The translations under genes and the position numbers were made by a program. Shown here piece by piece: positions 2,923 to 35,773 of a DNA stretch of 64,000 bases. The notes below the pieces were generated by a model. The model made no database searches and was not told the DNA's origin. It was given only the letters and a program-made list of their open reading frames with translations. Every line of letters starts with the position of its first letter. Within the stretch, counting starts at the first letter, position 1. This DNA comes from Epsilonproteobacteria bacterium tcs-49 (lineage in GTDB: Bacteria; Campylobacterota; Campylobacteria; Campylobacterales; Sulfurovaceae): the NCBI GenBank assembly GCA_002049495.1, contig LLYS01000005.1, positions 124,001 to 188,000 of the forward strand, read 5' to 3'.

Positions 2923-3899
2923 TGAAAAAATCCTGTCTTTTACTGATCTTACTCCTTACCACTTCCCTGTGGGCGGAGGTTACGAACAAAGAGGCGTTGC
3001 GGCATACCTATGAAAGGGTCGTACTGCACAATATCGATACAAGCGTCACCGCCTTGCACGGGCTGGAAGAAGCGATCAGGGCCAAACAAGCCGCCGACGC
3101 CAAAGCGCGCTTTGGCGACTTGGTCACGGCGTGGAAAAAGGTGCGCGCGCTTTACTTTCTAGGGGAACTCGATCCCGCTTACCTGGACACGCCCCGGCTG
3201 ATCGACACCTTCCACCACGGCAACGAAGACCTCGCCGACCAGCTTGATCTGATCCTTGAAAGCGACGATCCTTTGGAGATCGCGCTGTTTAAAAACTCCC
3301 ACAAATCGATCAACGCTTTGGAGTACCTGCTCTTTACCAAAAAGGTCTCCGATCCCAGGGTAAACGCCGCTATGCTTCGCATCTGCGGGGCGGTTAAAAC
3401 GCATCTGTTTGATATCCAGAAAGGGTATCTGCAAAACAAACCCCTCTTTTTACAAGATACCAACCGCGCCAACGCCTTATTGATCAACGCCCTTTCGGAA
3501 AGTTCCTACAAACTCAAAGAGTGGCGCATCGCAGACGTAGCCGGAATTTCGGACAAATATGAGGGCGACCCGGACCTGCGCAGGGGCGAATATCCCCACA
3601 GCGGCAACTCTTTACAAGCGGTAAAAGCGATTGTCTCGATGTATATCCAAGTCCTGGATTCTCCTCAAGAGGGGGACTTTGGCGATTATCTGGAATCGAT
3701 CCTTGCAGCAAAGAACCTTCAGCGGATCAAAACGCCCCTGCAACAATCACATACACTGCTCGCACAGATGCAGGAGCGGGATCTGCTAACGTCGCGAAAA
3801 CTTTATGAACAGCTGCACACGCTGCATCTGGGAATCTACGTCTACCTCATCGACGCGCTTAAGATGCAAGCTAAAATCCTGGACGCGGACGGAGACTAA
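2922..3899 (+). CDS. Second imelysin-family protein
   Basis: A 325-residue protein with a short secretion signal (hydrophobic residues 5-17, then WAEV) and an imelysin-like fold. The motif INALEYLLF near residues 128-136 corresponds to the GxHAxEFLLW region of the first imelysin but lacks the GxH part. Operons with one canonical and one divergent imelysin around a di-haem oxidoreductase are known; the pair may form a complex. Start overlaps the previous stop by one base. It has no lipobox, so it is probably soluble in the periplasm. Function within the family is inferred only. Confidence 0.8.
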   Translation: MKKSCLLLILLLTTSLWAEVTNKEALRHTYERVVLHNIDTSVTALHGLEEAIRAKQAADAKARFGDLVTAWKKVRALYFLGELDPAYLDTPRLIDTFHHGNEDLADQLDLILESDDPLEIALFKNSHKSINALEYLLFTKKVSDPRVNAAMLRICGAVKTHLFDIQKGYLQNKPLFLQDTNRANALLINALSESSYKLKEWRIADVAGISDKYEGDPDLRRGEYPHSGNSLQAVKAIVSMYIQVLDSPQEGDFGDYLESILAAKNLQRIKTPLQQSHTLLAQMQERDLLTSRKLYEQLHTLHLGIYVYLIDALKMQAKILDADGD

Positions 3900-3900
3900 A

Positions 3901-4791
3901 ATGGAACAGCTCCCCCTGACCGAGTATTTCATCGATCCCAACAGGCGGCTGTTTTGGCTCTATCTGCTCAGCAGCTTCGCCATCTCCGTACTCTACCTTG
4001 CTCTTGCCCCCAAACAGCGGCGCCGTAACGCCACGAGCAAACTGTGGCTCCACCCCAGCGCGATTTTGGATTATAAATACTTTTTTGTCTCCGTCTTTAT
4101 CAAAACCTTTATGCTGCTGCCCCTGCTGCTTTCGGCGCAGCAGGTCTCTTTGTATAGCTATGAACTGCTCAGTTCCCAATTTGGCTATATGCGCCTGCGC
4201 CTGCCCCGAGAGATCGTTATCGGACTCTATACCGCCGCACTTTTCATCGTCAGTGATTTTACCCGCTACTGGCTCCACCGGTTGCTGCATACGGTTCCCG
4301 TTTTATGGCGCTTTCACAAGGTTCACCACAGCGCGAAGGTGCTTACGCCCTTTACCTTTTACCGTGTCCACCCCGTGGAAAACCTCCTCTTTGGCTTCCG
4401 TTACGCTTTGAGTATCGGCACCGTAACGGGTGTGTTTCTCTTTCTGTTCGGGGCGATGATCGATATCCATACGGTATTGGGGGTTAACATCTTTATCTTT
4501 ATTTTTTCCCTGCTTGGATCCAACCTGCGCCACTCCCATATCCCCCTGCGCTATCCGGGCTTTTTGGAATATCTGTTCATCTCCCCCAGACAGCACCAGA
4601 TCCACCACTCCAGCAGCCATTTTGACAAGAACTACGGCGGATACCTGGCGATATGGGATCTGATCTTTGGCTCCTTACAGCGCTCTTTGGATACAAAAAT
4701 CCTGCGCTTTGGCCTGCATAAAACGCAGATGCGCAGCTACACCACCCTGCGGCAACTGCTCTTAACCCCTTTTACAAGGAGAACCCCATGA
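3901..4791 (+). CDS. Sterol desaturase / fatty acid hydroxylase family membrane protein
   Basis: A 296-residue integral membrane protein. Histidine clusters typical of the family bind a di-iron centre: HRLLH, HKVHH, HSH and HQIHH in the second half. Several hydrophobic segments lie at residues 15-30, 58-80, 103-120 and 160-205. The ATG at 3901, one base after the preceding stop, is preferred over an upstream in-frame codon inside the imelysin gene. Members oxidise lipids using O2 and di-iron. Its place inside an iron-responsive operon is unusual; it may modify a membrane lipid or act as an iron-dependent sensor of the envelope. Substrate unknown. Confidence 0.82.
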   Translation: MEQLPLTEYFIDPNRRLFWLYLLSSFAISVLYLALAPKQRRRNATSKLWLHPSAILDYKYFFVSVFIKTFMLLPLLLSAQQVSLYSYELLSSQFGYMRLRLPREIVIGLYTAALFIVSDFTRYWLHRLLHTVPVLWRFHKVHHSAKVLTPFTFYRVHPVENLLFGFRYALSIGTVTGVFLFLFGAMIDIHTVLGVNIFIFIFSLLGSNLRHSHIPLRYPGFLEYLFISPRQHQIHHSSSHFDKNYGGYLAIWDLIFGSLQRSLDTKILRFGLHKTQMRSYTTLRQLLLTPFTRRTP

Positions 4792-5933
4792 AACGAACGC
4801 TACTACTAAGCACCCTGGGCGTTTTATTGCTGCAAGGCTGCTTCTCCCCCGATCCGCAGCAGCTGCAAAAGCGCCAAAAGCAAAAGGAGCTTCTGGGTAA
4901 AACCCTCTTTTTCGACAAAAGCCTTTCTCAAAATCAAACCCAAAGCTGTGCCACCTGCCACGATCCGCAACACGCCTTTATCGACCCCAGGGACACAGAA
5001 GCTTCGGGAATGGTTTCTTTGGGAGACGACGGGCATAGCTTCGGCACCAGAAACGCTCCCACGGCGACCTATGCCATGTTCAGCCCCGCTTTTCACTTCG
5101 ATGAACAGAAGCAGCACTACCTCGGAGGACAGTTTTACGACGGGCGCGCGGCGACCCTCGCAGACCAGGCGGGAGGACCGCCGCTAAACCCCGTGGAGAT
5201 GGGGATGGGTTCTACAACCGAGCTTATCGAGCGCCTCAAAAACAACCCCTACTACCGCAGCGAACTGACCGCACTTTACGGCGATAGCATCTGGGAAAAC
5301 GGGAAGAAAGCGTACGCGGCGCTCACCGGCGCAATCGCCGCCTTTGAGAAAACGGAAACCTTCGCCCCCTTTGATTCAAAATATGACCGCTACCTGCGCG
5401 GGGAGTATGAGTTAAGCGCCCTGGAGGATCTGGGTAAAGCGCTGTTTTTCAGTAACGACAACACCAACTGCTCCACCTGCCATATGCGCAAAGGGGAGGA
5501 TAGAGCGTATGAAACCTTTACCAATTACGAATACCACAATATCGGCACCCCTGCCAACACCCTCGCGGCCAAACTGGCAAAGCAAACGGGCAAGGATCGG
5601 GGATTGTTGGAAAACCCCGCCGTTACGGACAAGGCCCACGCGGGCAAGATAAAGGTCCCTACCCTGCGCAACGTCGCCGTAACCGCTCCCTATATGCACA
5701 ACGGCGTGTTTAAGGAGCTTGAAACGGTGATCCGTTTTTACGATCACTACAACAACCCAGAAGCCGCCGTCAATCCCGAAACGGGCAAAAAGTGGAAAGA
5801 ACCGATTTTTGCGGCTACTATAAGCAAGGAGGAACTCAAAGCCAGAAAACTGACCGATAGAAAGATCAAAGCCCTGGTCGCTTTTTTAAAACTGCTCACC
5901 GACAGGAGGTATGAACACCTGCTTGAACGCTAA
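4788..5933 (+). CDS. Di-haem cytochrome c peroxidase-family lipoprotein
   Basis: A 381-residue protein of the CcpA/MauG family. It has a lipoprotein signal (lipobox LLQGC) and two c-type haem sites: CATCH near residue 56 and CSTCH near residue 228. APYMHNGVF near residue 303 matches the conserved distal segment of bacterial di-haem peroxidases. It probably reduces peroxide in the periplasm or performs a MauG-like oxidation. It overlaps the preceding gene by ATGA and ends the operon. Two di-haem proteins in one iron-responsive operon is notable. Confidence 0.85.
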   Translation: MKRTLLLSTLGVLLLQGCFSPDPQQLQKRQKQKELLGKTLFFDKSLSQNQTQSCATCHDPQHAFIDPRDTEASGMVSLGDDGHSFGTRNAPTATYAMFSPAFHFDEQKQHYLGGQFYDGRAATLADQAGGPPLNPVEMGMGSTTELIERLKNNPYYRSELTALYGDSIWENGKKAYAALTGAIAAFEKTETFAPFDSKYDRYLRGEYELSALEDLGKALFFSNDNTNCSTCHMRKGEDRAYETFTNYEYHNIGTPANTLAAKLAKQTGKDRGLLENPAVTDKAHAGKIKVPTLRNVAVTAPYMHNGVFKELETVIRFYDHYNNPEAAVNPETGKKWKEPIFAATISKEELKARKLTDRKIKALVAFLKLLTDRRYEHLLER

Positions 5934-6004: not shown

Positions 6005-7474
6005 ATGCCGAAGTTAAAAGATTTAGCAAAGCTTGCCTCCTCCTATACGGTCCTCATCGTCGAAGACAATAAAACGCTTTTGACAAAGCTGCAGCAGTTT
6101 TTACAAAAATTCTTCCATACCGTACTGAGTGCCCGCGACGGCCGGGAGGGGCTGCACCTCTATCGGCAGCATAAACCCCAGATCGTTATCACCGATATAA
6201 AGATGCCCGAAATGGACGGTATCACCTTTATCAAAAAGCTGCGTTTCAACGACCCGGAAGTAAAGATCCTCATCCTCTCCGCATTTGACGACAAGGAGTA
6301 CCTCTACACCGCTATCGAACTGGGCGTATTTCGCTTTTTGAAAAAGCCGCTTGTTTTAGAGGAGTTTACCCAAACCCTGATCAAGCTGCTGGAGCTGATG
6401 CAGCACGAAGCGCGAATACAGCTGCTCAAAAGTTACGAAGGCAGCGACAATATGGTCGTCGTTTGCGAAAACAAAACCCCCGTTTTGGCCAGTGACCGCT
6501 TCCTGGATTTTTTCGCTCTGAACGATATCGAAGAGTTTAACGAAAAATACGGGGACCTGGAGGATCTTTTTTTAAAACAGGAGGGGTTTTTATACAGTGA
6601 TTCAATCTCCTGGAAAGAGAAACTTTTAGCCAATATGCAGCAAAGCCACCAGGCGATGATCAAAGACAGCAAGGGCAAGATACGCCACCTGATGCTCAAA
6701 GCCTACCCCCTGCAGATGCCCCAGCTCAGCCGCGAGGATTCGGCGGTGGTGCTGTCCATGGTCGATATCACTGGGTTGGAGCTTTTGCCCCACCAAGAGA
6801 AAGAGATCTCTGCCCAAAAGCAGCAGGAGGCGACGGTCAAAGTGCTCAACTACCTCAAAGAAAACGGCTCAGAGGTACATCTGCACAACTTTTACCGGGG
6901 CTTGACCATCACCGACAAGGGCAAGATCGCCTTTGTGAGCAAAGACCGTATCGCTTTGAAAACGCGGGCCAATCAGCAAAAGGCGATCAAAAAACAAAAC
7001 TGGGTCGTCATCCACTCCCCCCTGCTGCCCAAGGATGTGATCTGCGAAGAGGTGGAGAAGCTGGATGAGGAGAAACATATCACCACAATGAAAAGATACC
7101 ATCTCATCGATTCCTCCCCCAGTAAAAGGCGCACCATTCGCGTAGAACCCAAAGAGGATATGCGCATGCAGCTGTGTTTCAACGAGCACTGTTTTGAAGC
7201 CGAACAGATCGAAGATATCAGTATCAACTCCGTACGATGTACCCTTTTTGCCCTGCCCGCGGGGTTGGAAAAGGGTTCAAAAGTCATGATCACATTGCAG
7301 CAAGAGGGGGGATTAACCCTGGAGTTTGAAGCGGCGATCTTTAAGATCTGGATGCAGGAGATGCACTATGAAGTGGTGGCAAACTACAACCTCGACGCGG
7401 AAAAGGAGCAGCCGCTGGTGCACTATATCTCCAGGCGGCAGATGGAGCTGATACGCGAATTCAAACATTTGTAA
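6005..7474 (+). CDS. Response regulator with C-terminal PilZ-like domain
   Basis: A 489-residue protein. Residues 16-130 are a receiver domain: VLIVEDN acidic pocket, TDIKMPEMDG containing the phosphorylatable Asp, and conserved Lys in FLKKP. The middle (about 140-270) resembles a PAS-type sensor. The C-terminus begins with RRTIRVEPKEDMRM near residue 372, the charged entry of a PilZ domain, although the canonical RxxxR and D/NxSxxG motifs are modified (EDISINSVRC). PilZ domains bind cyclic di-GMP. Likely role: phosphorylation- and perhaps c-di-GMP-controlled output. The next gene starts 13 bases downstream, so the two are probably co-transcribed. Confidence 0.75.
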   Translation: MPKLKDLAKLASSYTVLIVEDNKTLLTKLQQFLQKFFHTVLSARDGREGLHLYRQHKPQIVITDIKMPEMDGITFIKKLRFNDPEVKILILSAFDDKEYLYTAIELGVFRFLKKPLVLEEFTQTLIKLLELMQHEARIQLLKSYEGSDNMVVVCENKTPVLASDRFLDFFALNDIEEFNEKYGDLEDLFLKQEGFLYSDSISWKEKLLANMQQSHQAMIKDSKGKIRHLMLKAYPLQMPQLSREDSAVVLSMVDITGLELLPHQEKEISAQKQQEATVKVLNYLKENGSEVHLHNFYRGLTITDKGKIAFVSKDRIALKTRANQQKAIKKQNWVVIHSPLLPKDVICEEVEKLDEEKHITTMKRYHLIDSSPSKRRTIRVEPKEDMRMQLCFNEHCFEAEQIEDISINSVRCTLFALPAGLEKGSKVMITLQQEGGLTLEFEAAIFKIWMQEMHYEVVANYNLDAEKEQPLVHYISRRQMELIREFKHL

Positions 7475-7487
7475 TGAAAGGTTTATT

Positions 7488-8237
7488 ATGGGTAAAGAGC
7501 AGATTCTCTATGACGACGGAACGCACAAATGTATCATGTTTTCCCTGGACGACGAGGAGGTGGAGGATTTTTTCCTCTCGGTCAACCAATTCCTGATTAT
7601 CCAGAACAACAGCGCCGTTTTGATCGATCCGGGCAGTGAAGCGGTCTATGAGGAGTTGCGCGAAGCGGTCTCGAAACATATCTCTTTAGATCGTATCAAA
7701 TATATCTTCTTTTCCCATCAAGACCCCGACGTCGCCGCTTCTATCACCCACTGGAGTATTGCCACCCAAGCGGAGTTTATCATCTCCAAACTCTGGATAC
7801 GCTTTTTAAGCCACTACGGTTTTATGGAGATGTCGCGTCTTCTTCCCCTGGAAGACGGCGGTGCCAAGATCGGCTTCGGACAGGAGTACCTGCGCTTTGT
7901 CCCCGCGCACTTTCTGCACTCTCCGGGGAACTTTTCCCTCTATGACAGCCGTTCGCAGATTCTGTTTTCGGGAGATATCGGGGCGGCGATCGTCCCCAAC
8001 GATACTTTGAACAACGAAGCAAAAAGTTTTCATAACCGCCTGGAGTACCTGGAACCTTTTCACAAACGCTACATGGCGGGCAACCGGGCGTGCCGCAAAT
8101 GGAGTTCGGAGGTGAGAAAGCTGCCGCTGAAAGCGATCGCGCCCCAGCACGGCGCTCCTTTCGACACGGCCGAAGATATTTCGGCGTTTCTGGAGTGGTT
8201 TGAAGGGCTTCAGTGCGGTATGGACCTGGAGGATTGA
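7488..8237 (+). CDS. MBL-fold protein of the diiron (ODP/FprA-like) type
   Basis: A 249-residue metallo-beta-lactamase-fold protein without a flavodoxin domain. SHQDPDVAAS near residue 76 takes the place of the HxExDH motif of flavodiiron proteins, HSPGN gives a further His, FSGDIG the bridging Asp and PQHG the last His. This pattern fits the stand-alone diiron oxygen-binding proteins (ODP) known in spirochaete and other chemotaxis systems, which act as O2 sensors. Paired with a receiver-PilZ protein, it is likely an O2 or redox sensor rather than a hydrolase. Its 3' end overlaps the convergent kinase gene by 28 bases. Confidence 0.72.
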   Translation: MGKEQILYDDGTHKCIMFSLDDEEVEDFFLSVNQFLIIQNNSAVLIDPGSEAVYEELREAVSKHISLDRIKYIFFSHQDPDVAASITHWSIATQAEFIISKLWIRFLSHYGFMEMSRLLPLEDGGAKIGFGQEYLRFVPAHFLHSPGNFSLYDSRSQILFSGDIGAAIVPNDTLNNEAKSFHNRLEYLEPFHKRYMAGNRACRKWSSEVRKLPLKAIAPQHGAPFDTAEDISAFLEWFEGLQCGMDLED

Positions 8238-10736: not shown

Positions 10737-11945
10737 TCAGTTGATTTGTAAAAGGGATTGGTCCGCTTCCCCCTCATATACCCTGTCGATATAGGCTTTT
10801 GTGATTATACAGCGATCCACATCCTCCCTGGAGGGCAGTTCGTACTGTAGCGGCAGCATGATCTTTTCGATGATGGAGCGAAGCCCACGGGCTCCTACCT
10901 TGGTCTCCTTTGCGATAGCCGCGATCTCTTTGAGGGCTTCTTGTTCAAACTCCAGCTCGATACCGTCAAGTTGGAAAAGGGCCTGATACTGCTTGATAAT
11001 AGCGTTTTTGGGCTCTTGCAGCACCCGCAGCAGATCGTCAATATCCAGCTCATTTAGCGTCGCGATCACGGGGATGCGGCCGATAAACTCAGGGATCAAA
11101 CCGAAACCGATCAAATCCTTGGCTTCGATGGAGCTCTTTTCCGCACGGTTTTCATCTTTGATAAAGCCCATCGTCGAACCGTCTTTATCTTTCGTATCTT
11201 TATGCGAAAGACTCACAAACGCCCCGCCGCAGATAAAAAGAACGTGTTTGGTATCAAACAGCGCCGTTTCCGCGGTGGAGTTTTTGCGGCTGCCCTTGAT
11301 CGGTACGTACACCTCCGCACCTTCAAGAATCTTTAAAAGCCCCTGCTGCACCCCTTCGCCAGAAACGTCCCGCCCGACGGTGGCGCTTTCGCTTTTATTG
11401 GCGATCTTGTCGATCTCGTCGATGTAGATGATCCCCTTTTGCGCCCGGTCCATATCAAAATCCGCCGCCGCGAGCAGTCTGGAGAGGATCGATTCCACAT
11501 CCTCGCCCACGTAGCCCGCTTCGGTCAGTGCCGTGGCGTCGGCGACGGCGAAGGGAACATCCATCACTTTGGCCAGAGATTTGGCCAGCAGGGTTTTCCC
11601 GCTGCCGCTGGGACCGACCATTAAGATGTTGCTTTTTTCCAGCTCCACATCCTGCATCACCGGTTTGTCGATCCGCTTGTAGTGGTTATACAGCGCTACG
11701 GAGAGGACCTGTTTGGCATCCTCCTGGCCGATAACGTAACTATCCAGGTGCTCCTTGATCTTTTCGGGAACGCTGAGTCCTTGCTGAAACTGCTGCTTCT
11801 GCTCCTTGAGGCTCTCCTTGTGCGCTATGGAGGAGCACAGTTCACAGCAGTTGTCGCATATGTGCGCATCTTCGGCGCTGAACATCTTCTTGACCCCATC
11901 GATCGGTTTGCCGCAGAAGCTGCACTTGATATCTTGCTGTTTCAT
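10737..11945 (-). CDS. clpX: ClpX-type unfoldase linked to the nif operon (ClpX2-like)
   Basis: A 402-residue AAA+ unfoldase. N-terminal zinc finger CSFCGK...CDNCCELC; Walker A GPSGSGKT; Walker B IIYIDEID; pore-1 loop GYVG; sensor-2 GARG. The usual ClpP-docking IGF is MGF here, and the RKH pore loop reads RKN. It begins 2 bases after the SIR2-like stop, at the end of a tightly packed nifA operon, so it is probably made with NifA. In Azotobacter vinelandii a second, nif-linked ClpX (ClpX2) controls NifB and NifEN levels; by analogy this copy may turn over nitrogenase-assembly proteins. Whether another clpX exists outside the window cannot be seen. ATG 11945 is preferred; an in-frame GTG sits one codon earlier. 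Confidence 0.85.
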   Translation of the reverse strand: MKQQDIKCSFCGKPIDGVKKMFSAEDAHICDNCCELCSSIAHKESLKEQKQQFQQGLSVPEKIKEHLDSYVIGQEDAKQVLSVALYNHYKRIDKPVMQDVELEKSNILMVGPSGSGKTLLAKSLAKVMDVPFAVADATALTEAGYVGEDVESILSRLLAAADFDMDRAQKGIIYIDEIDKIANKSESATVGRDVSGEGVQQGLLKILEGAEVYVPIKGSRKNSTAETALFDTKHVLFICGGAFVSLSHKDTKDKDGSTMGFIKDENRAEKSSIEAKDLIGFGLIPEFIGRIPVIATLNELDIDDLLRVLQEPKNAIIKQYQALFQLDGIELEFEQEALKEIAAIAKETKVGARGLRSIIEKIMLPLQYELPSREDVDRCIITKAYIDRVYEGEADQSLLQIN

Positions 11946-11947
11946 CA

Positions 11948-12763
11948 CTATAACTTTATATACTCGTTCACGGACTCTACGTGAGGCGTAAAACCGTGCT
12001 TGTCAAAAAAGCGCTGCTGCTTTTTGGTAAACTCGCTTTGGTCGGTTACGACCGCACCGCCCGCGCTGTCCATCGTCAACTCGTTAGCGACCATACGGAA
12101 GGTGTCTTTGCTAAAATCCACTCCCAGAAACAGATACTCTTTGCCCTTGCGGTAACTTTTCAAAAACTCCGGCATCCCGTACCCCGCCATCGCTTCGGTG
12201 AGCCAATCCACGAAATCCGCGTCGCTGACGATCAGGTTGTTTTGCGGCGTGACCGAGCCCATGGGTTGGAACAGAATCGGAAAGGAATCGTTCAGACTCT
12301 GCTTGTCGATCTCGTTGTATTTTTGCGCCTTGACATCGTAAAGGTAAACGACAAAGCGGTCATGCTCCGCCCCGATACGCGAAATCCCCGTGATCAAAAA
12401 GTGGGTCTGGTCGCTGTAGACGCGCTGCAGCGAACTGTCGACGTTGGTATCGATCACATATTTTGGTTTGTATTTTTGCAGCGCCTTGTAGATGGGGGCG
12501 AGCTCATACTCCTTGGAGTAGATATGTTTTACCATCTGCTCCAGATACTCCCGTCCCCGTCTTTGCTCTATACTCATCGCCGCACGGCTGTACTCATACA
12601 TCAGCCTGGGCGACATGGCGCGGCCGTTGTTGAGCGTAATGATAAAAGAATCCCCGTCAAAGGGCATCTCACCGCCGTCGCTGAAGCGGCATCCTTCAAA
12701 TACGCCCATTCCGATAAAGGGCACATACTCCCTGTTTTGTAGCAACTGCTCTAAACTATCCAT
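11948..12763 (-). CDS. SIR2-like protein in the nifA operon
   Basis: A 271-residue protein resembling the SIR2-like NAD-binding families: PFIGMGVF near the N-terminus, KYVIDTNVD (the 'I/V-T-N-x-D' step), QPMGSVT in place of the usual HG motif, DADFVDWL, and a late LFLGVDFSKD. The catalytic His of true sirtuins is not evident, so it may bind rather than hydrolyse NAD. Start MDSLEQ at 12763 overlaps the preceding gene by 8 bases and replaces a longer upstream reading. It lies between a redoxin-like gene and clpX in the nifA operon, pointing to a role in nitrogen-fixation control. Substrate unknown. Confidence 0.6.
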   Translation of the reverse strand: MDSLEQLLQNREYVPFIGMGVFEGCRFSDGGEMPFDGDSFIITLNNGRAMSPRLMYEYSRAAMSIEQRRGREYLEQMVKHIYSKEYELAPIYKALQKYKPKYVIDTNVDSSLQRVYSDQTHFLITGISRIGAEHDRFVVYLYDVKAQKYNEIDKQSLNDSFPILFQPMGSVTPQNNLIVSDADFVDWLTEAMAGYGMPEFLKSYRKGKEYLFLGVDFSKDTFRMVANELTMDSAGGAVVTDQSEFTKKQQRFFDKHGFTPHVESVNEYIKL

Positions 12764-13288: not shown

Positions 13289-14815
13289 CTATTTGATCTC
13301 GTACTTTTGCATTTTGTAACGGATCTGTCGCTGGCTGAGACCGAGTTTTTGGGCAGCCTCGGCCACGCTGTTGTCACAGTTTTGCAACGTCGCTTCGATC
13401 GCTTCTTTTTCGATCTGTTCCAGGGTTTTATCCCCGATCTGTCGGGATTGGTAATTTTGCGAAAGCTTTTGGTCGTTGAGCGCAGGCAGCATCAGCAGCA
13501 TATCCTTGGCGCTCACTCCCTCTTCGCTGCCGATCAACACGATACGCTCAATCGTGTTTTCCAACTCCCGGATATTGCCCGGCCACGGATAGCTGCACAA
13601 CTGCTCCATCGCGTCTTCGGTGAGGGTGACGCGTTTTTTATGGTTTTTCATGGAGCGCTCCAAAAAGAAATTGACCAGCAGCCTGATATCATCCCCCCGT
13701 TCGCGCAGCGGCGGCAGATCGATAGGGATAACATTAAGACGGTAGTACAGATCTTCCCGAAACTCCCCGTCTTTTACCATCTGTTCCAAATTTCTGTTCG
13801 TCGCGGCGATGAGGCGGACATTGACCTTGATCGTTTTGCCCCCGCCCACGCGTTCAAATTCGCGCTCTTGCAGTACCCGCAGCAGTTTCACCTGCGCCGA
13901 AGCGGAGATATCGCCGATCTCATCAAGAAACAGCGTCCCGCCGTCAGCCAGCTCAAACCGCCCCTTGCGCATCTCCTTCGCATCGGTAAACGCCCCCTTT
14001 TCGTGCCCGAAAAGTTCACTTTCGATCAGGGTGTCGGTGATAGCGGCACAGTTGAGCTTGACAAAGGGTTCCTCTTTTCGGCGGCTGCGTTTGTGTATGG
14101 CCGAAGCCACAAGCTCCTTGCCCGTCCCCGTTTCACCGCGTACCAAGACGGTAACGTTGCTATCGGCGATCTGTTCGATCACTTTGAAAACACTCTCCAT
14201 CTTTTCGCACTGGCCGATAATGTCGCCGAAGTTGTGCACTTTGGAATCCCACTCCATCTTATAGTACTGCTGCAGATCATTGAGCCGCTCCTTCTCCTTT
14301 TTGTTGAGCTGATAGGAGTGGATCGCCTGTCCGAAGATGGAGCTGATAATGCTGAGGATACGGATCGTTTCATCAAAATCGATCTCGGTAGTTTTGGTCA
14401 GCGTCGCACTGAGCACTCCCACCACATCCTTGTCCACCTGCATCGGCACGGCGACGTAGGAGATGGTCTGGTTGTTTCTGATCCCCGATTTGTTGAGAAA
14501 TAAAATATCGTTGTGCACGTTTTCCACGACCACCGGTTCCTTGCTCTGTGCGGCTAACCCGGTCGCTCCCTCGCCCAGACGAAAGGAGGAGAGGATCTGC
14601 TGCTGTTTGGTAAAATCCTGTGAAGCGAACATATTGAGCCTGTCATCTTCGAGCAGGTGGATGGCACAGTTTTCCAGGTAAAGATTGTTTTTCAATATTT
14701 GCAGCGATTTCGCCAGAGAAGTTTCGATATCGTAGGTTTTTGATATAAGCATAGCTATCTCGTGAAGAACGGACAGCTCTTTGTTGGTGAGGCATACTTC
14801 ACATTTTTCTTCCAT
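13289..14815 (-). CDS. nifA: NifA, sigma-54-dependent activator of nif genes
   Basis: A 508-residue enhancer-binding protein. N-terminal GAF domain (about 15-170); central AAA+ domain with Walker A GETGTGKE, a sigma-54 contact loop reading GAFTDA instead of the usual GAFTGA, and Walker B GGTLFLDEIGD; C-terminal Fis-type helix-turn-helix AAQKLGLSQRQIRYKM. There is no Cys-rich interdomain linker, so it is not the O2-sensitive rhizobial type, yet no nifL is present. Start MEEKCEV at 14815 has AAAGAG upstream and replaces a start 9 codons earlier. It heads an operon with a redoxin, a SIR2-like protein and ClpX. It should drive the sigma-54 promoters listed below. Confidence 0.92.
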   Translation of the reverse strand: MEEKCEVCLTNKELSVLHEIAMLISKTYDIETSLAKSLQILKNNLYLENCAIHLLEDDRLNMFASQDFTKQQQILSSFRLGEGATGLAAQSKEPVVVENVHNDILFLNKSGIRNNQTISYVAVPMQVDKDVVGVLSATLTKTTEIDFDETIRILSIISSIFGQAIHSYQLNKKEKERLNDLQQYYKMEWDSKVHNFGDIIGQCEKMESVFKVIEQIADSNVTVLVRGETGTGKELVASAIHKRSRRKEEPFVKLNCAAITDTLIESELFGHEKGAFTDAKEMRKGRFELADGGTLFLDEIGDISASAQVKLLRVLQEREFERVGGGKTIKVNVRLIAATNRNLEQMVKDGEFREDLYYRLNVIPIDLPPLRERGDDIRLLVNFFLERSMKNHKKRVTLTEDAMEQLCSYPWPGNIRELENTIERIVLIGSEEGVSAKDMLLMLPALNDQKLSQNYQSRQIGDKTLEQIEKEAIEATLQNCDNSVAEAAQKLGLSQRQIRYKMQKYEIK

Positions 14816-14942
14816 AGTGTACTCTTTATACTTGATTTTCACGGTAAAAGCCGGGCCCTTTCACACAAGAACCCCGCACTTCATATCAATAATTGTACCG
14901 ACTATGGAAAAAAAAAGAACAATTTTGTTGTTTAAAAAAGTA

Positions 14943-21826: not shown

Positions 21827-22840
<1,014 letters not shown>

Positions 22841-26578: not shown

Positions 26579-26594
26579 GGGAACGCTAAATGCA
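26579..26594 (+). promoter_or_regulatory. Sigma-54 promoter of nifEN
   Basis: GGGAACGCTAAATGCA: -24 GGGAACG, CTAA, -12 ATGCA, GG to GC 10 bases. It is almost identical to the nifH element. Predicted start near 26605, 35 bases before the nifE ATG. Confidence 0.75.
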
Positions 26595-32533: not shown

Positions 32534-32830
32534 ATGACAACACGAGTAGAAATTGTAAACGATTTTCTGGCGATCAACGTAAAGCCCGGAAGCACCATTC
32601 AAGACGTAGTAGAAGCCAGCGGTAGTGCCCTGCCCTTCGGCTGTAGAGACGGTGAATGCGGAACGTGCGTCGTTGAGATCGAACAGGGGATGGAATTTTT
32701 GACCGATAAAACGGACAAAGAGGTCAAAGTCCTCAAAGAGGTATGTTCCGGGACGTGTACGCCCAACTCCAGACTTGCCTGCCAAATGAAGATCGACAAA
32801 CCAAACGGGGTTATCCGTATCAAATACTAA
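32534..32830 (+). CDS. [2Fe-2S] ferredoxin
   Basis: A 98-residue plant-type ferredoxin with all four ligands: CRDGECGTC near residue 37 and the late Cys in SRLACQMKI. Two further Cys lie in EVCSGTCTPN. It follows the degenerate ferredoxin-like gene and ends before an intrinsic terminator. Likely electron carrier to nitrogenase assembly or to nitrogenase itself. Confidence 0.9.
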   Translation: MTTRVEIVNDFLAINVKPGSTIQDVVEASGSALPFGCRDGECGTCVVEIEQGMEFLTDKTDKEVKVLKEVCSGTCTPNSRLACQMKIDKPNGVIRIKY

Positions 32831-32850
32831 GAACACTTCGTTACCTGCCA

Positions 32851-32878
32851 AGTTTCCGGCTCTGCCGGGAACTTTTTA
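32851..32878 (+). terminator. Intrinsic terminator after the ferredoxin pair
   Basis: AGTTTCCGGC (32851-32860) and GCCGGGAACT (32864-32873) form a 10-bp stem with one G-U pair and a TCT loop, followed by TTTTT. This stem core is almost the same as that of the hairpin at 21714-21740. Confidence 0.8.
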
Positions 32879-32970: not shown

Positions 32971-33798
32971 ATGAACAGTTTACAACTAAGCCCAAAACAG
33001 AAACAATCCTTTAATCTGTCCCTACGCTTGTGGCTGCCTTTGCTGCAATCCCCGCTCCAGGAGCTGGGAAGCGTTTTTCAAAACTACAGCTATGAAAACC
33101 CCTTTTTGGAGTATGACGCCGGACGCTACGAGTCGAGCTACTCCGCAGGCGGCGGCGCTGAAGCGCTGAGTCCAAAGCAGCGGGCTTTCATCCCGATCGC
33201 CGCCTTTACGGCCGCCGGGGAGATGGAAAAGCTCGAAGACGCGCTCGTTGCCGGCCTTGAAACGGGGCTTAGCATCAATGAAATAAAAGAATCGATCGTG
33301 CATCTTTACGCCTATACGGGCTTTCCCAGAAGCTTAAACGCACTCAACCTGTTTATGGAGGTCGTTGAAAGCAGAAAGCAAGTGGGCATCGAGGATACGG
33401 TAGGCAAAGAGGCGTCGCCGCTGCCTGAGGATTTTGACAAAAATGCCTACGGGGCCAAGGTTCGCGCGAAGCTGGCCGGACGGGAAAAAGATATCTCGGG
33501 TGCGCCCTGGCAAGAGTTTTCACCCGCTATCGACACGTTTTTGAAAGAGCATCTTTTTGCTGATATTTTTGCGCGGGACGTGATTTCACATAAAACGCGG
33601 GAGTTGGTGACTATCTCGGCTTTGGCGGCGCTTCCCGGAACCCAAGGGCAGCTGCGTTTTCACTATAAAGCGTCGATGAACGTCGGCTTGACGCAAAAGC
33701 AGCTGCAGGATTTCATAACCACGCTGCGAAAGCGGGTGGATACAAAACGGGCGACGGTTGCCGGGGATGTTTTGGAAGAGGTACTCAAAGCCCCGTAA
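32971..33798 (+). CDS. Sigma-54 region I fused to a carboxymuconolactone-decarboxylase fold
   Basis: A 275-residue protein of unusual design. Residues 3-48 align without gaps to RpoN region I, the activator-interacting domain: LQL at 4-6, LPLLQ at 22-26, LQEL at 29-32 and ENPFLEY at 42-48 correspond to LQL, RLLQ, LEL and NPLLE of sigma-54. The RNAP-binding core, HTH and RpoN box are absent. Residues about 62-130 (SPKQRAFIPIAAFTAA, HLYAYTGFPRSLNAL) and 200-265 (LVTISALAALPG, HYKASMNVGLTQKQL) are two carboxymuconolactone-decarboxylase/AhpD-type repeats without a CxxC redox pair. It stands alone between nif ferredoxin genes; no clear Shine-Dalgarno sequence is seen. Inference: it may mimic sigma-54 and bind NifA or RNA polymerase under a metabolic or redox signal. 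Confidence 0.8.
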   Translation: MNSLQLSPKQKQSFNLSLRLWLPLLQSPLQELGSVFQNYSYENPFLEYDAGRYESSYSAGGGAEALSPKQRAFIPIAAFTAAGEMEKLEDALVAGLETGLSINEIKESIVHLYAYTGFPRSLNALNLFMEVVESRKQVGIEDTVGKEASPLPEDFDKNAYGAKVRAKLAGREKDISGAPWQEFSPAIDTFLKEHLFADIFARDVISHKTRELVTISALAALPGTQGQLRFHYKASMNVGLTQKQLQDFITTLRKRVDTKRATVAGDVLEEVLKAP

Positions 33799-33813: not shown

Positions 33814-34200
33814 TTAAAAATCTCCTACGTTTTCGTGAGCTTCTCTGGCTTCCATGGAGATATCTTCCAAAAACGGCTGGGATTTTACCGAGGGCAGCAT
33901 CATCCCCTTTTTCTTATGGACGCGGATAGCGTAGCGCCCCTCGTCGTTCCCGCTGGAAAAGTACTCCTCGTACTCGGGCTGGTAGGGCATATCCCATACG
34001 ATCGCACCCTCGGTGGGACAGGCTTCCGCGCATCGGGGTTCATCGGCGTGCCCTACGCACTCCACACAGCTTTCGGGTTTGACGTAGTAGCGGTCGTCAA
34101 AGGGGTTTTTGGGATTATCCTCTCCCAAAATTGCCGCGACCGGACACTCCGACTCGCAAGCTTCACAGTTGATACACTCTTCGGTGATAAGTACTGACAT
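33814..34200 (-). CDS. 2[4Fe-4S] ferredoxin, FdxB/FdxN-like
   Basis: A 128-residue ferredoxin with motifs CINCEACESECPVAAI near residue 8 and CVECVGHADEPRCAEACPTEG near residue 46, and a C-terminal extension ending in AREAHENV, much like the paralogue at 25703-26080. The extended second motif is typical of nitrogenase-linked ferredoxins. Start MSVLITE at 34200 follows AAAGGA. It lies 101 bases after the LRR gene and may be the last gene of that unit. Confidence 0.87.
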   Translation of the reverse strand: MSVLITEECINCEACESECPVAAILGEDNPKNPFDDRYYVKPESCVECVGHADEPRCAEACPTEGAIVWDMPYQPEYEEYFSSGNDEGRYAIRVHKKKGMMLPSVKSQPFLEDISMEAREAHENVGDF

Positions 34201-34301
34201 AGTTGATCCTTTATAAATACTTCTTTCAAACTCTATCTTAGAGGGCAAATCCTCACTTCGTTCTGAGCCTCACGATACAGCTTTGAAAAAAGTATATTCA
34301 T

Positions 34302-35303
34302 TTACCGTTCCAGATCGCAAAACTCCAACCCGGGCATTTGCGGGATCTGCTCTACTTCGTTGCCCCCGATATAAAGCGTTTGGAGCTTGCTCAGCGTCTC
34401 AAACCCCTTTGGCAGCTCGGCGATGGCGTTATCCTCCACGTCCAGCTCCTCCAGCGCCCGCATCTGCGAAATGCAGCCAGGCAGCGCTTTGAGGCGGTTG
34501 TGCGCGGCGTTTATGGTGTTGAGCTTTTCAAGTTTGCAAATCCCCCGGGGCAGTTGATAGAGTTTGTTGTTTTCGATGGAAAATACCTCCAGATCCTCCA
34601 GGTAGGAAAAATCCGCCTCAATATGCTCGATCAGGTTTTCGTTGAGATTGAGATTGCGCAGCGAGTGCATCCGCTCCAGCGGCGGCAGCTCGGTGATGCC
34701 GTTGTGCTCCATCAAAAGCATCTCCAAAAAACTCAGGCGGTACACCGACGCCGGGATGGTTTCAAGCCTGTTGTACGACAGGTTCATAAAGTACAGATTC
34801 TCCATCTTTTCAAACAGGTTGGGCAGGTGGGTCAAATCGTTGCTGTCCAGGTCCAGATAGAGCAGTTTGTGCAGCTGCTCAAAACTCTCCGGCAGCGTTT
34901 GCAGCCCGTTATACCCCGCCATGACGCGAGTGAGGTTGCGCAGCTTGCCCATGTCACCCGGCAGCGCTTGCAGGTGGTTGCCCCCGCAGTTTAAAATGAT
35001 CAGCGACTCCAGACGCGTTAAGCTGCGCGGCAGCGCCTTGAGGCGGTTGTGGTCACACTGCAGGTTTTTGAGCTTGCGCAGGTCGCCTATGGATTCGGGC
35101 AGTTTGGAGAGATAGTTAAAGGACAGCTTCAGCACGCTCAGATTTTCCAGCGCGCCGATGGATTCGGGCAGATGGCGCAGGTGGCGCTTGCTCAGATCAA
35201 GCACGCTCAGGGTTTTGAGCTGTTCAATATCAGTCGGGATTTTGTCGTCGTAGCCGCGGGATTTGACCCAGTCGGCGAAATTTTTTAAGGTTATATCTGA
35301 CAT
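34302..35303 (-). CDS. Leucine-rich repeat protein
   Basis: A 333-residue protein made almost wholly of about 12 leucine-rich repeats of 22-24 residues, with pattern LxxLxxLxLxxNxLxxLPxx (for example LSVLKLSFNYLSKLPESI). No signal peptide, membrane segment or enzymatic domain is seen, so it is a cytoplasmic binding scaffold. It overlaps the BFD-like gene by 13 bases in a unit with CCE_0567 and ferredoxin genes, behind a nif-type promoter. Partner unknown. Confidence 0.85.
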   Translation of the reverse strand: MSDITLKNFADWVKSRGYDDKIPTDIEQLKTLSVLDLSKRHLRHLPESIGALENLSVLKLSFNYLSKLPESIGDLRKLKNLQCDHNRLKALPRSLTRLESLIILNCGGNHLQALPGDMGKLRNLTRVMAGYNGLQTLPESFEQLHKLLYLDLDSNDLTHLPNLFEKMENLYFMNLSYNRLETIPASVYRLSFLEMLLMEHNGITELPPLERMHSLRNLNLNENLIEHIEADFSYLEDLEVFSIENNKLYQLPRGICKLEKLNTINAAHNRLKALPGCISQMRALEELDVEDNAIAELPKGFETLSKLQTLYIGGNEVEQIPQMPGLEFCDLER

Positions 35304-35530
35304 GCTTGCCTCTGCTCAATCAAAAATGCGATCTCTTCAAAATCGATCTGGCCGAATTCCACCATATCAAAAAGCCTGCGCAGGGGTTTTCTGCAGCAGG
35401 TTTTTGAGCACTTTGTGACCAGTTTTTTCGCCTTTTTATAGGGCAGATCGGTGTTTTCAAAGTGCGTGATCGCCTCCTCTACGGTCGCTTCTCCGCACTC
35501 GCAGATGATGAGGCTTTTGGCGGGGCTCAT
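35291..35530 (-). CDS. Small BFD-like Cys protein
   Basis: A 79-residue protein with ICECGEATVEEA near residue 9 and CSKTCCRKPLRRL near residue 41. The CxC...CxxxCC layout with helices between resembles the bacterioferritin-associated ferredoxin (BFD)-like [2Fe-2S] domain, which has CxC and CxxC. Identification is tentative. It overlaps CCE_0567 by 4 bases and the LRR gene by 13. Confidence 0.55.
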   Translation of the reverse strand: MSPAKSLIICECGEATVEEAITHFENTDLPYKKAKKLVTKCSKTCCRKPLRRLFDMVEFGQIDFEEIAFLIEQRQACQI

Positions 35531-35733
35531 TTCAAAAAGTCGTGCTTCGCTTTAAAATCAAGATACTCGCCCATCGCTTTTTGGACATCTTGACTGAGGC
35601 CCGGTAATTTGTCGTAATCGCTCCAGATGGTGTCTTCGACGATATCGTGGATCACACCCGCGATCTCGGTGACTTTTCTTTTATATTTGGCTGCTTCTTT
35701 TTTGATAGCTTTTTGTTCATCGGTAAGTGGCAT
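35527..35733 (-). CDS. CCE_0567/DUF683-family small nif protein
   Basis: A 68-residue helical protein: DEQKAIKKEAAKYKRKVTEI then IHDIVEDTIWSDYDKLPGL, matching the antiparallel helix pair of the CCE_0567 family that commonly sits beside nifX. Its role is unknown but nif-restricted. Start MPLTDEQ at 35733 is 7 bases after AAAGGA; an adjacent ATG one codon upstream is possible. First gene of the LRR unit. Confidence 0.78.
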   Translation of the reverse strand: MPLTDEQKAIKKEAAKYKRKVTEIAGVIHDIVEDTIWSDYDKLPGLSQDVQKAMGEYLDFKAKHDFLK

Positions 35734-35773
35734 CATCTTTCCTTTGCACATGAAATTTCATTTAGAGATTTCT

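Follow-up and report, generated by a model that had tools for sequence, protein, structure and literature searches.

Organization of the nif locus and position of the fusion gene

The window, i.e. the whole 64,000-nucleotide stretch of DNA analysed here, harbours nifH, nifD, nifK, nifA, nifE, nifN, nifX and nifZ, together with a NifX-associated gene, a flavodoxin gene and several ferredoxin genes, as well as a nifB-like radical-SAM gene and a homocitrate-synthase-like gene. Located in this cluster, as the preliminary description had it, is a gene whose product combines the sigma-54 activator-interacting domain (AID) with a protein of the carboxymuconolactone decarboxylase (CMD) family. The gene, its parts and its immediate neighbours are as follows:

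32971..33798, + strand: AID-CMD fusion gene, ATG start, 275 amino acids plus stop codon
32977..33111, + strand: sigma-54 activator-interacting domain, residues 3-47 (Pfam PF00309)
33112..33162, + strand: linker, residues 48-64, with the junction within; resemblance to RpoN2 up to about residue 61
33163..33795, + strand: two-repeat CMD part, residues 65-275 (PF02627); no CxxC, no signal peptide
32534..32830, + strand: [2Fe-2S] ferredoxin gene directly 5' of the fusion; its ortholog precedes rpoN2 in relatives
33814..35751, - strand: genes for a 4Fe-4S ferredoxin, an LRR protein and two small proteins on the far side of the fusion

In 19 of the 22 rpoN loci of relatives that were read, the orthologous ferredoxin gene is directly followed, on the same strand, by a full-length nif-linked rpoN (termed rpoN2 here), the open frames of which span about 408-457 codons. 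The order of the nif genes around rpoN2 in the relatives is that of the window, and at one locus (L147) the LRR gene and two small conserved genes located after rpoN2 match the far side of the fusion. Since the ferredoxin-rpoN2 synteny, the nif gene order and these far-side genes agree, the fusion is assigned to the orthologous rpoN2 slot, in which it keeps the first ∼61 codons of rpoN2. Two further genes of the window's nif region, coding for a ClpX-type ATPase (10737-11948, - strand) and the LRR protein (34302-35303, - strand), also have orthologs in the nif clusters of relatives.

Domain composition of the fusion protein

The Pfam search of the whole protein placed Sigma54_AID (PF00309) on residues 3-47 with an E-value of 2.1e-8, and residues 1-61 alone gave an E-value of 6.5e-10 (39.1 bits; cut-off 23.8). 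Against a profile built from the RpoN proteins of 24 relatives, from which the fusion protein was excluded, the latter scored 82.8 bits, that is, higher than the complete RpoN of its own genome (54.8 bits), while the best of 20,000 shuffled versions of residues 1-62 reached 13.1 bits. CMD (PF02627) matched the fusion protein in two stretches (E-value 1.1e-18), and NCBIfam likewise assigned RpoN models to the N-terminus and CMD models to the remainder. That this two-repeat CMD protein carries a sigma-54 region I is thus borne out, as is the distinctness of the segment from shuffled sequence. The RpoN-like segment had been delimited at residue 48, which proved too short: similarity to RpoN extends to about residue 61 (YESSYSAGGG), and that to CMD proteins starts at about residue 64. 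The linker reads YESSYSAGG in the fusion and FESSYSSGS in the RpoN2 of a relative.

The fusion protein, including its CMD half, contains no CxxC, as described previously, so the redox motif of AhpD is missing. It is not designated PcaC either, because its score with the PcaC equivalog model TIGR02425 (70.7 bits) lies below the cut-off of 155.7. No in-frame ATG ahead of the CMD core occurs before residue 85; hence the CMD part is normally made with the AID attached. In an AF2 model obtained with CMD relatives, the CMD part is confident and residues 11-62 have a pLDDT below 50. The third-position GC content is 0.62 in both halves of the fusion, like that of the host.

The core-binding domain (Sigma54_CBD, PF04963) and the DNA-binding domain with the RpoN box (Sigma54_DBD, PF04552) each have a single match in the genome, both of them in the RpoN encoded on another contig (C1). 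The sigma body is therefore absent from the fusion, in agreement with the original claim that the parts which make a sigma factor have been replaced, and the chimera, having neither domain, cannot act as a sigma factor. Neither a remnant of the rpoN2 body nor a separate copy of the CMD gene was found elsewhere in the genome.

Sigma-54 genes in the family and search for other fusions

The presence of sigma-54 tracks nitrogen fixation in this Campylobacterales family: RpoN2 was found in 18 of the 19 other genomes with nifD versus 2 of the 130 without it, and 154 of the 175 family genomes gave no RpoN match in this search. Each RpoN-bearing relative shows a single RpoN, and almost all of these are nif-linked. 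One genome (G071) has nifD and no RpoN match, and two (G080, G148) have RpoN and no nifD match.

The RpoN of the window genome, 429 codons long, adjoins an lptB-like gene. No other genome of the family has an lptB-linked RpoN; two further genomes, from elsewhere in the order, show the same arrangement. According to published work, RpoN regulates flagella in Campylobacterota, and the Sulfurovum/Nitratifractor lineage has lost them (PMC9321776); we guess this lineage to be the family studied here. The window genome encodes flagellar FlhA, which together with the lptB-linked RpoN fits this published view. The N-terminus of the fusion resembles the nif-linked type, as its AID (residues 6-48) shares up to 70% identity with RpoN2 versus 30% with the genome's own RpoN; residues 1-62 share at most 59% with any RpoN2. 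Because the window genome, alone in the family, has this other RpoN, rpoN2 appears expendable, and the nif genes would now be served by the lptB-linked RpoN.

The fusion had been presented as a protein of undescribed design, and no second one was found in whole-genome searches of the 175 genomes of the family and of 299 genomes representing part of the order, among the 80 top-scoring hits in contigs of GTDB genomes, among the 20 plasmid hits listed, or in IMG/VR. Five short-frame AID hits were considered and rejected. Two of them (G411, G261) continue as RpoN until the contig stops, one (G347) ends at the contig end and two (G269, G200) start at theirs; since the frames run to contig ends, all five are cut genes and not fusions.

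Origin and nature of the CMD part

In the phylogenetic tree, the CMD half falls into a clade with 100/99 support together with five CMD proteins of Desulfobulbaceae, Desulfosarcinaceae and Desulfobacteraceae, other CMD proteins of Campylobacterota being placed elsewhere. This grouping with Desulfobacterota, apart from the other Campylobacterota, indicates that the CMD half was horizontally acquired, and sulfate reducers of the Desulfobacterota are its well-supported putative donors. The Desulfobacterota relatives have hydrophobic N-termini that, judged by eye, read as signal peptides, and CMD relatives in general bear a signal peptide or a short leader at the position where the fusion carries the AID. 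As the AID stands in the place of the signal peptide, the enzyme should be cytosolic. Of the conserved CMD columns, 63 out of 64 are retained, and the branch of the CMD half measures 0.72, compared with 0.17-0.31 in its own clade. The best PDB match, both by sequence and by fold, is 4g9q. In two relatives the CMD gene is surrounded by genes for alcohol dehydrogenases, an aldo/keto reductase, a cupin and another oxidoreductase; a role in small-molecule metabolism is suggested at this general level rather than at that of an exact substrate.

Two other CMD genes deserve mention. A Campylobacterota CMD (locus L153 of G296, 7013-7681, + strand) has no signal peptide when judged by eye, which means that signal-peptide loss is not unique to the fusion, and at locus L159 of G412 (3826-5355, - strand, 510 codons) the N-terminal half of a CMD runs in frame into an apparent MFS transporter.

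Conservation of the activator-interacting domain

The fusion keeps 14 of the 15 columns conserved in RpoN2, the miss being residue 50, which lies outside the AID, so that all 14 RpoN2-invariant positions inside the AID are intact. The branch of the AID (0.51) is the longest among RpoN2 AIDs (next 0.33), and the intact nif proteins of the lineage (NifN, NifE, NifF and the NifX-associated protein) have branches that are long in similar proportion. Hence, there is no sign of AID decay. A rough estimate takes intact nif proteins to change about ten times more slowly than neutral sequence. On this assumption, a fully unconstrained AID would probably have lost at least one of the 14 invariants unless the fusion took place in the last few percent of the branch, which favours a young fusion or, alternatively, an AID still under selection. 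If the CMD gene arrived with the fusion, its long branch points rather to an older event. The chimera retains both the N-terminal peptide and the helix of sigma-54 region I. To judge from the sequence, NifA could possibly grip this peptide, the holoenzyme context that presents it being missing.

NifA, promoters and the hairpin preceding the fusion gene

The regulatory features of the window comprise:

13289..14842, - strand: nifA (GAF, AAA+ and HTH domains), with the sigma-54 contact motif variant GAFTDA
32850..32874, + strand: GC-rich hairpin followed by T residues, between the ferredoxin gene and the fusion; fold -16 kcal/mol, z -2.8
22785..22800, - strand: -24/-12 type promoter upstream of nifH, GGGAACGGCAAATGCA; same form in relatives
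26579..26594, + strand: -24/-12 type promoter upstream of nifE, GGGAACGCTAAATGCA; similar sites in relatives

NifA has GAFTDA in place of the canonical GAFTGA, and so does the NifA of another genome (G004, locus L135). In NorR the equivalent change, G266D, escapes repression by the GAF domain (PMC2941729). The idea that GAFTDA compensates for the loss of RpoN2 was ruled out, because the variant is also present in G004, where RpoN2 is intact.

The nifH and nifE promoters share the form GGGAACG-N4-AATGCA. No -24/-12 promoter was found in front of the fusion, and the hairpin located there, which a consensus scan missed, is a probable terminator or attenuator. Since the hairpin precedes the gene and no -24/-12 site does, expression of the fusion may be separate from that of the nif operon. 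By eye, a hairpin, not always with a T-run, can be recognised in the ferredoxin-rpoN2 gap of several relatives (L129, L130, L132, L142, L143 and others); it could set the expression of rpoN2 relative to the nif operon.

Interpretation of the fusion

The data are best explained by an in-place replacement of rpoN2 through a fusion that is fairly young, with the AID largely a passenger in it, maybe with weak NifA contact; we give this reading, whose passenger part is inferred, a probability of roughly 0.6. There is good support for the fusion itself, for where it lies and for how it arose; any mechanism is tentative. Synteny, phylogeny and the absence of the sigma body support an event in which a CMD-type gene from the Desulfobacterota, stripped of its signal peptide, was fused in frame with the first ∼61 rpoN2 codons and the remainder of rpoN2 was lost. 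The loss would have been tolerable if, as we infer, the lptB-linked RpoN can substitute at the nif -24/-12 promoters; more generally, a second RpoN may make a nif-linked one dispensable. The product of the fusion gene, translated from the original start of rpoN2, would be a CMD-family enzyme located in the cytosol, and its N-terminal leader, the sequence-intact AID taken over from RpoN2, may touch NifA weakly. The earlier picture of a region I grafted onto a CMD protein holds insofar as the joining is genuine, but its direction has to be revised: the body of the sigma gene disappeared and a CMD gene from outside took its place, instead of region I being added to a resident CMD gene.

Several points weigh against regarding the AID as a passenger. 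It shows no decay, which is expected of a passenger only if the fusion is recent, the long CMD branch hints at an older arrival, and the whole explanation rests on one genome and one assembly. Given the same origin, selection might instead have kept the AID because it binds in trans to NifA, or to a different sigma-54 activator. The AAA+ ring would then grip the peptide of the chimera and not that of the holoenzyme, so that the chimera titrates or times nif activation or recruits the CMD enzyme to the activator. This would be consistent with an AID that evolves at the pace of intact nif proteins, with a NifA bearing its sigma-54 contact loop in the same cluster and with a CMD part that is normally made with the AID attached; moreover, functions of region I in trans are the subject of a paper of 1999, cited in PMC4551910. 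The decoy, antagonist or adaptor role envisaged in the preliminary description gains some support from the intact AID as well. Yet the chimera lacks the holoenzyme and the promoter fork by which region I is presented, the fusion occurs in no second genome of the sets searched, a recent fusion accounts for the conservation of the AID too, and both the hairpin and the missing -24/-12 site point to a gene not necessarily expressed together with nif. We therefore lean towards the passenger interpretation and consider a selected NifA ligand a credible but less probable outcome; that a detached region I serves as a selected handle on a metabolic enzyme, with the NifA ring acting on or titrated by a non-sigma protein, is somewhat less probable still. 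If true, nif transcription would be tied to a CMD enzyme by a naturally occurring AID that acts in trans.

An assembly chimera or sequencing artefact uniting the start of rpoN2 with an unrelated CMD gene might be suspected, as there is a single assembly, in 17 contigs, and no other genome in the genus. The in-frame junction, however, lies exactly where the RpoN2 linker ends and the mature CMD starts, conserved nif genes flank the fusion on both sides, the two halves agree in third-position GC with each other and with the host, the rpoN2 body and a separate CMD copy are found nowhere else, and the genome is 99.9% complete with 0.6% contamination, all of which makes an artefact very improbable. 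As for the short, leucine-rich and helical nature of the segment, it could in principle reflect an ordinary extension of a CMD subfamily that merely resembles RpoN region I. The profile score set against the shuffles, the position in the rpoN2 slot and the signal peptides or short leaders of the CMD relatives refute this, leaving it a negligible probability.

The replacement of rpoN2 is a clear-cut example from nature in which a specialised sigma factor was dismantled in place, its activator handle surviving on a foreign enzyme, and the chimera makes it possible to ask directly whether a sigma-54 AID freed from its sigma factor can control an AAA+ activator inside a cell.

Comparison with known systems

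The closest counterpart of the fusion on its N-terminal side is the nif-linked RpoN of related Campylobacterales, with which it shares the locus and the first ∼61 residues (the AID and the beginning of the linker), but in which the core-binding and DNA-binding domains stand where the fusion has a CMD protein. On the C-terminal side, the exported two-repeat CMD proteins of Desulfobulbaceae and Desulfobacteraceae, members of the same clade, exhibit 63-65% identity over residues ∼64-273 and have a signal peptide instead of the AID. AhpD and the 4-carboxymuconolactone decarboxylase PcaC have the CMD fold in common with the fusion, which differs from the former in missing the CxxC and from the latter in falling below the TIGR02425 cut-off. 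Finally, the fusion differs from the truncated RpoN proteins of Neisseria in that an intact enzyme domain of foreign origin, joined in frame, has taken the place of the lost part.
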